Source: Acidobacteriota bacterium
GTDB lineage: Bacteria > Acidobacteriota > Vicinamibacteria > Vicinamibacterales > JAKQTR01
Assembly (NCBI GenBank): GCA_026393675.1
Contig: JAPKZQ010000008.1
Coordinates: forward strand, 1 to 53,336
Direction of reading: 5' to 3'
DNA: 53,336 nt
Positions within the stretch are counted from its first letter, which is position 1. Every line of letters starts with the position of its first letter. The translations under genes and the position numbers were made by a program. The notes under the pieces were generated by a model. It made no database searches and was not told where the DNA came from. It saw only the letters and a program-made list of their open reading frames with translations. Shown in pieces: positions 1 through 53,336 of this stretch.

Positions 1-103
1 GGTCTCACGACCTCACGCAGGGGACCGCGCTACCCTACTGCTCAGCGGTTCATAGGGGTGGGCTCCTTTCATCCCACGAGGAACACGCCGCTTCACGGCG
101 CAC
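1..103 (-). mobile_element. Group II intron, 5' end (cut by window edge)
   Basis: Read on the minus strand, a sequence starting GTGCGCC begins at 103 and runs off the left edge. GTGCG matches the GUGYG 5' consensus of group II introns. The boundary is set by comparison with the uninterrupted repeat at 2209-2345: both share the end CAAGGCGCGTTTTG, after which this copy switches to GTGCGCC while the other continues CCGGCTTGCG. The matching 3' end of such an intron, with the same downstream exon, lies at the right edge of the window. The intron-encoded protein is not in view. Confidence 0.75.
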
Positions 104-251
104 CAAAACGCGCCTTGTCGGGAAAAGTCGCCGACCTTACGATGTGGGACCCTCGCCCAGACCCTGTCCTGGCCCTACCGGCACGTTTTGCAAACTGACG
201 CCCTTCGACTTCGCTCAGGACTTCGCTGTCGGCTTGGTTCGAGGGGCCGCT
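104..251 (-). repeat. Dispersed palindromic repeat, copy interrupted by group II intron
   Basis: On the minus strand this segment matches the copy at 2209-2345: a GCGGCCCCTCGAACCAAGCC block, a left arm GCAAAACGTGCCG, a middle containing AAGGTCGGCGAC, and a right arm ending CAAGGCGCGTTTTG. It carries about 26 extra bases (CTGAGCGAAGTCGAAGGGCG and a few more) between the first block and the left arm. The group II intron follows the right arm directly. The rest of the 1-292 stretch holds no gene. Confidence 0.75.
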
Positions 252-2208: not shown

Positions 2209-2345
2209 GCGGCCCCTCGAACCAAGCCGACAGCGAAGTCTGCAAAACGTGCCGAAAGGGCCAAGACGAGCGGCGCGAATAGCGCGACCGTCAGGTCGGC
2301 GACACGTCCCGGCAAGGCGCGTTTTGCCGGCTTGCGTGAGCGGGG
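2209..2345 (+). repeat. Dispersed palindromic repeat, uninterrupted copy
   Basis: This copy lies in the 340-bp gap between mfd and the surA-like gene, where no gene is seen. Arms GCAAAACGTGCCG (2242-2254) and CGGCAAGGCGCGTTTTGC (2310-2327) are nearly complementary. The sequence then continues CCGGCTTGCGTGAGCGGGG (2327-2345). The left window edge carries the portion up to GTTTTG, and the right edge carries the portion from CCGGCTTGCG, each joined to group II intron sequence. This copy therefore shows the empty insertion site, after 2326. Confidence 0.8.
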
Positions 2346-2428
2346 ACGCCCTGCGGACTAACGCGCCACGGGTGCCCATGTCCCACTACCGTCAGGTAAG
2401 ACGATCAGGACGTTCGCGTGGCCGCCGG

Positions 2429-53146: not shown

Positions 53147-53215
53147 AAGGGCGATTCTTCACGCGCGTGGCTGCGGGCCGACGTTTCCCTCCGCGGCCCC
53201 GCTCACGCAAGCCGG
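53147..53215 (-). repeat. 3' exon flank of the right-hand group II intron (repeat remnant)
   Basis: On the minus strand, CCGGCTTGCGTGAGCGGGG (53215 to 53197) matches the sequence following the junction in the uninterrupted repeat (2327-2345). The next bases diverge. This marks a third copy of the repeat that serves as the intron target. Confidence 0.65.
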
Positions 53216-53336
53216 GTGGAGTAGGCCCCAGTCCGCCGTGGAATCACGCACGGACCAGCAACCCCTCGTCAAACCGTACGTGCGGATTTCCCGCATACGG
53301 CTTCCCTCGACGTTCACCGAGTATGCCTTGCGTCGA
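53216..53336 (-). mobile_element. Group II intron, 3' end with domain V and VI (cut by window edge)
   Basis: On the minus strand, a 34-base hairpin at 53271-53304 (GAAGCCGTATGCGGG, AAATCCGCACGTACGGTTT) has the domain V form: AGC triad, paired stem with internal bulge and GAAA-like loop. A domain VI-like stem (GGTCCGTGCGTG with CACGGCGGACT around ATTC) follows, and CCTACTCCAC ends the intron with AC at 53216, the usual AY 3' end. The exon starts CCGGCTTGCG. The intron body and its reverse transcriptase lie outside the window. Confidence 0.8.

Follow-up and report, generated by a model that had tools for sequence, protein, structure and literature searches.

Both edges of an Acidobacteriota contig are very probably opposite ends of a single multicopy group II intron at home in a dispersed palindromic repeat

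The two contig edges and their splice junctions

The window analysed here, a stretch of 53,336 nucleotides, is the entire contig C8 of a Vicinamibacterales genome (Acidobacteriota) that comprises 46 contigs and 3,252,245 bases. At its left edge, read on the minus strand, an exon ending in ...CGACAAGGCGCGTTTTG (...CAAGGCGCGTTTTG in a longer reading) meets an intron that begins with GTGCGCCGTGAAGCGG..., with the junction between positions 104 and 103. Positions 1..103 (minus strand) carry the 5' end of a group II intron, the start of domain I with the sequence GTGCGCC..., which continues beyond the contig and is assigned from its identical copies in the genome, from its match to the intron of a Luteitalea sp. 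MAG described below and from a fold of five sequences. The 5' exon at 104..250 (minus strand) is the 5' half of a dispersed palindromic repeat and matches positions 10-127 of our repeat query, which was taken from positions 2200-2360 of the window. Its last seven nucleotides, CGTTTTG at 104..110 (minus strand), are the putative IBS1, a position equivalent to that of exon bases that covary with the intron in three relatives.

The right edge, again on the minus strand, shows an intron ending in ...GGCCTACTCCAC (longer reading ...CCTACTCCAC) at position 53216 that is joined to the exon CCGGCTTGCGTGAGCGGGG from position 53215 onward. The intron 3' end at 53216..53336 likewise runs off the contig; it is recognised by the Rfam model of the group II catalytic intron (RF00029; 53305-53216, minus strand, 50.6 bits at a cut-off of 40 bits, E 4.7e-7), by its copies elsewhere in the genome and by the 3' end of the Luteitalea intron. 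Domain V lies at 53271..53303 (minus strand) according to both the Rfam match and the fold, within one base of the 53271-53304 given in the initial annotation, and is followed by domain VI at 53219..53267 (minus strand), which is placed by the Rfam alignment and by a consensus fold of three sequences in which three pairs of domain VI have changed on both sides while domain V is unchanged. Domain VI carries a bulged A at 53222, the seventh base from the intron 3' end and the predicted branch point, so that the pair of domains has the form expected of a group II intron. The termini GTGCGCC...CTACTCCAC follow the group II pattern, in which the intron starts with GTGYG and finishes with AY, and the GTGCG...AC splice ends that had been proposed are indeed present at both junctions. 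Downstream, the 3' half of the repeat (3' exon) starts with CCGGCTTGCG and occupies 53173..53215 (minus strand) with an approximate outer limit, as positions 53193-53215 correspond to query positions 128-150 and the remainder was set by comparison with other copies.

An empty copy of the repeat at 2209..2350 (plus strand) served as the reference, with the insertion point between 2326 and 2327. As had been read from the stretch near 2209-2345, this copy is uninterrupted: the joined site CGCGTTTTGCCGGCTTG is found at 2318-2334, with 0.03 chance matches expected when two mismatches are allowed. The junction falls at positions 127|128 of the repeat query, and because the intron ends of the window abut exactly these two positions, its edges represent both exon junctions of one insertion point.

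Copy number and the broken assembly

The 103-nt intron 5' end is present in eight genome copies with 100% identity, all of them at contig ends and on contigs that stop 103-136 nt into the intron, and the 3' end has seven matching copies that are likewise confined to contig ends. All eight 5' junctions and all seven 3' junctions fall at one and the same base of the repeat (...CGTTTTG|CCGGCTTG...), with the 5' ends following ...TTTG and the 3' ends preceding CCGGCTTG[C/T]GTGAGCGG. Together with the RF00029 match, this bears out the original reading that both edges are group II introns inserted at the same point of one repeat and that the intron is multicopy, with a copy number that is to be read as a lower bound of at least eight. 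The intron body was not found in the assembled genome, in a search of its readable contigs (five small ones read as N), and the sole reverse transcriptase detected belongs to a different intron (on contig C37). With 15 of 15 intron edges at contig ends and the body absent, the suggestion that the assembly had stopped at identical intron copies also holds: the contigs end within about 136 nt of intron sequence and the body is missing because short reads cannot cross identical copies. When contig ends were grouped by shared sequence (82 readable ends; 10 read as N), intron edges made up 33 of the 82. Pairing of contig ends across the intron via synteny with the same-genus genome G004 found no partner. 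Two further sets of contig ends that are identical within each set resemble insertion-sequence termini, one at C1s, C21e, C28e, C38s and C43s and another at C6e, C17e, C34s and C40s.

The dispersed palindromic repeat

Around 25 uninterrupted copies of the repeat are scattered across the genome. The repeat forms an extended, imperfect palindrome (as DNA, its fold has z -4.3, and 0 of 200 shuffles fold as well) with conserved ends and variable cores and has no family match in Rfam. In 31 copies, the last 11 nt before the insertion point can pair with the upstream left arm. Variable arm positions match in 150 of 186 cases, whereas 5,000 partner shuffles averaged 125 matches and reached 144 at most; as the observed matches exceed all of these shuffles, the arms have preserved their pairing. 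The right arm ends exactly at the insertion point, just as the initial annotation had it for a palindromic arm. The left-arm end at 2242..2249, GCAAAACG on the plus strand, offers the same 8-mer CGTTTTGC on the other strand and is free of insertions in the copies seen. Within the repeat copies of the source genome, IBS1 sits in the arm and the local hairpin varies; a hairpin ending exactly before IBS1 in all copies was considered and rejected as inconsistent among them. An attC array was ruled out as the identity of the repeat, given that its copies are scattered singly and that the insertion-point sequence differs. On contig C17 (57840-58244), three to four units of the repeat's 3' part follow one another in tandem with a 73-nt period.

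Relatives of the intron

With a query joined from the two intron termini, we identified in a Luteitalea sp. MAG (G191) an intron that matches the 5' part with 93% and the 3' part with 88%, in the correct order and orientation on one 1,900-nt element. This arrangement in a relative supports the view that the two edges of the window belong to one element. The G191 intron has domains I-III, an open reading frame in domain IV and domains V and VI; the encoded 450-aa protein is a group II reverse transcriptase/maturase (325.8 bits against TIGR04416, cut-off 300) that matches Pfam RVT_1 and GIIM only (GIIM at 348-414) and has no endonuclease domain. Its reverse transcriptase active-site motif reads YADE instead of the usual YADD, and this particular copy may be inactive.

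Further partial copies are held by another Acidobacteriota MAG (G112), in which contig C86 carries a relative without reverse transcriptase whose domain V seems to be disrupted or joined to the beginning of another intron. Among 84,980 species genomes scanned by pattern, these two MAGs were the only ones with close relatives of the intron, and both belong to the same order as the source genome; the intron 5' end had zero matches in a plasmid collection. The 5' ends of five sequences share a consensus fold with compensatory changes, for example from CCCTA/TAGGG to TTCCA/TGGAA, and domains I-III of three relatives adopt a fold in which 28 pairs have changed on both sides.

Target site recognition

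Every 7-mer within the final 25 bases of the exon was tried at every position of the domain I-III alignment of three relatives. Of these 9,424 placements a single one stood out, pairing exon positions -7 to -1 with one intron loop at 95% Watson-Crick pairs. The last seven exon bases differ completely across the three relatives and the domain I loop changes in step (exon/loop ACTTTGT/ACAAAGT, GATTACG/CGTAATC and AATTTGA/TCAAATC, pairing over 7, 7 and 6 bp). In the consensus fold, this loop caps a domain-I hairpin. Covariation in the three relatives thus supports an IBS1-EBS1 pairing of which the source genome shows the IBS1 side alone. There, the occupied repeats carry CGTTTTG five times, CATTTTG twice and CGCTTTG once as IBS1, from which an EBS1 near CAAAACG is predicted, possibly with U or G facing the variable exon bases. 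For exon positions -8 to -14, the same scan of all placements gave no candidate IBS2-EBS2 pairing in the three relatives. Because the assembled genome contains 116 CRTTTTGC sites, those of the left arms on the other strand included, and each of the eight insertions nevertheless lies in a right arm, the reading of the site must extend past IBS1 and the first base of the 3' exon.

Intron class

Group IIC introns are described as lacking EBS2, pairing over three to four bases and using an upstream stem-loop (PMC7923331; PMC10190682), and the initial annotation had likened the intron to class C introns that target hairpins. Part of this comparison stands. The systematic scan of three relatives gave no EBS2, the G191 intron-encoded protein (IEP) has reverse transcriptase and maturase domains only, and a minimum free energy fold of 60 nt of 5' exon leaves exactly 7 or 8 unpaired bases before the insertion in three of four relatives, a pattern with a chance of 6-7% per relative. 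The best-scoring solved chain in the PDB for the relative's IEP is, in addition, the GsI-IIC enzyme. What does not agree is the pairing of 6-7 bp in three relatives instead of the 3-4 bp of group IIC (PMC7923331). The hairpin call varies with the length folded as well, with the same unpaired pattern in only two of four relatives when 40 nt are folded, and a hairpin upstream of IBS1 is inconsistent among the repeat copies. The structural scores, too, are close for the IIC enzyme and the T. elongatus type 6me0 (168.9 versus 152.6 bits). Because the missing EBS2 fits group IIC but the pairing length does not and the stem-loop evidence is mixed, we do not file the intron, as judged through its relatives, under IIC; it may still work like one, and a genuine class C intron, with recognition of a DNA stem-loop and the IBS1 behind it as in terminator and attC introns, comes close to an even proposition.

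Somewhat more doubtful is a group IIB-type intron that homes to linear sequence and for which the palindrome is merely the sequence that happens to be repeated. A 6-bp IBS1-EBS1 pairing has the length given for IIA and IIB introns (PMC7923331), and the exclusive use of the right arm despite the same 8-mer on the other strand of the left arm would be natural for a linear target, but the missing IBS2-EBS2 pairing in the three relatives speaks against this type of intron. Moreover, occupation of only the right-arm kind among the CRTTTTGC sites calls for context beyond IBS1 and IBS3, and no further pairing accounts for this restriction. With the same reserve, we can imagine a small subfamily, known from three Vicinamibacterales genomes, in which a 7-base EBS1 that works without EBS2 replaces the IIC rule of a hairpin plus three to four paired bases and which is fixed on one palindrome in the source lineage, with a second intron family (see below) on another, so that harmless landing sites would be shared out between them. 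The subfamily may lie between the short-EBS1 IIC introns and the longer-EBS1 IIB introns.

Origin and spread

The same-genus genome G004 contains 27 matches to the repeat and zero copies of the intron 5' end. Because of this, the simplest reading is that the repeat predates the intron, which probably reached the source lineage later. One complete empty repeat of G004 (C28:359363-359503) lies beside the same NusG-like gene as positions 104-250 of the window in opposite orientation, and this inversion ruled it out as a strict empty-site counterpart. The eight occupied repeats differ in their cores and in the seven bases touching the intron, and these differences in the flanking bases favour separate insertions over co-conversion of repeat and intron. 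Joint spread of both by duplication, or gene conversion between repeats without separate retrotransposition, would suit occupied sites that all lie in one homologous repeat family and visible intron ends that are identical, but conversion tracts would be expected to carry the differing bases along and the introns of two relatives occupy other sites with matching, different EBS1 loops, which leaves this scenario very improbable.

Other introns in the same genome

A second group II intron family is represented by 11 contig ends with its presumed 5' part (C1e, C4s, C11s, C12e, C15e, C19e, C27e, C29e, C33s, C39e and C46e) and seven with a 3' part in which Rfam detects domain V (C3e, C9e, C11e, C18e, C20e, C30e and C42e), and we infer that these two sets of ends form one family. 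All 11 of the 5' parts follow GATCC, mostly directly after a hairpin such as GCCACGCTGGAGCGTGGC, and in one copy the stem differs in sequence but still pairs (GCCGGGCTGGAGCCCGGC). This arrangement fits the pattern described for class C introns, on a palindrome that differs from that of the window's intron.

On contig C37 (2350-4330; L025), a methyltransferase-like gene is interrupted by a group II intron that is assembled in full and encodes a 440-aa reverse transcriptase. This enzyme is the closest to the G191 protein outside the subfamily among the loci compared (46% identity), but the C37 intron differs from the window's intron in being single-copy, located inside a gene and fully assembled. 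A short group II intron-like stretch without reverse transcriptase reading frame is found on contig C12 at about 900-1350 (L016; Rfam, 45 bits).

Comparison with known systems

The intron shares the lack of EBS2, the lack of an endonuclease domain (in the relative's IEP) and insertion at a palindrome edge with group IIC introns found after terminators or attC sites and with the intron-maturase of E. rectale seen bound to a DNA stem-loop (PMC10190682). However, these systems use an IBS1-EBS1 pairing of 3-5 bp instead of 6-7 bp, and their target is a stem followed by IBS1, whereas the target here is a long dispersed repeat with IBS1 inside the arm. Group IIC-attC introns (PMC7923331) are similar in that their target is an imperfect palindrome with conserved ends, a variable core and IBS1 in the arm and is entered at one fixed position and orientation, but it sits in a cassette array instead of being dispersed and reads TTGT|T at the insertion instead of CGTTTTG|C. 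Dispersed extragenic palindromes also harbour a group II intron of Pseudomonas putida KT2440, of which two of nine copies lie in REP sequences (PMC1525189); this is a minority of the copies, unlike the present case in which every copy seen (eight of eight 5' and seven of seven 3' junctions) is in the repeat. In the open-licence literature searched, we found no precedent for one dispersed palindrome that is used exclusively by all copies of an intron.

Proposed mechanism and implications

Taken together, the two edges of the window very probably represent the opposite termini of a single group II intron retroelement that is present in multiple copies and homes to the repeat. Judging from the established pathway and from the relatives, the intron RNA, in complex with the reverse transcriptase that it encodes, would reverse-splice into one DNA strand, at a site that would be chosen by pairing of the 7-nt domain I loop (EBS1) with the last seven nucleotides of the right arm (IBS1, CGTTTTG). 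Features of the surrounding palindrome would also guide this choice, and the inserted intron RNA would then be copied into DNA. The intron probably does little harm to its host, since its landing site is a dispersed repeat and it should be able to leave transcripts by splicing.

The intron edges show why genomes of this kind fragment under short-read assembly. Beyond this, the way in which group II introns select structured DNA targets can be studied in this genome as a natural experiment, with two intron families side by side, each on a single kind of palindrome in every copy seen (8 or 11), and with many empty copies of the first repeat as internal controls for target choice.
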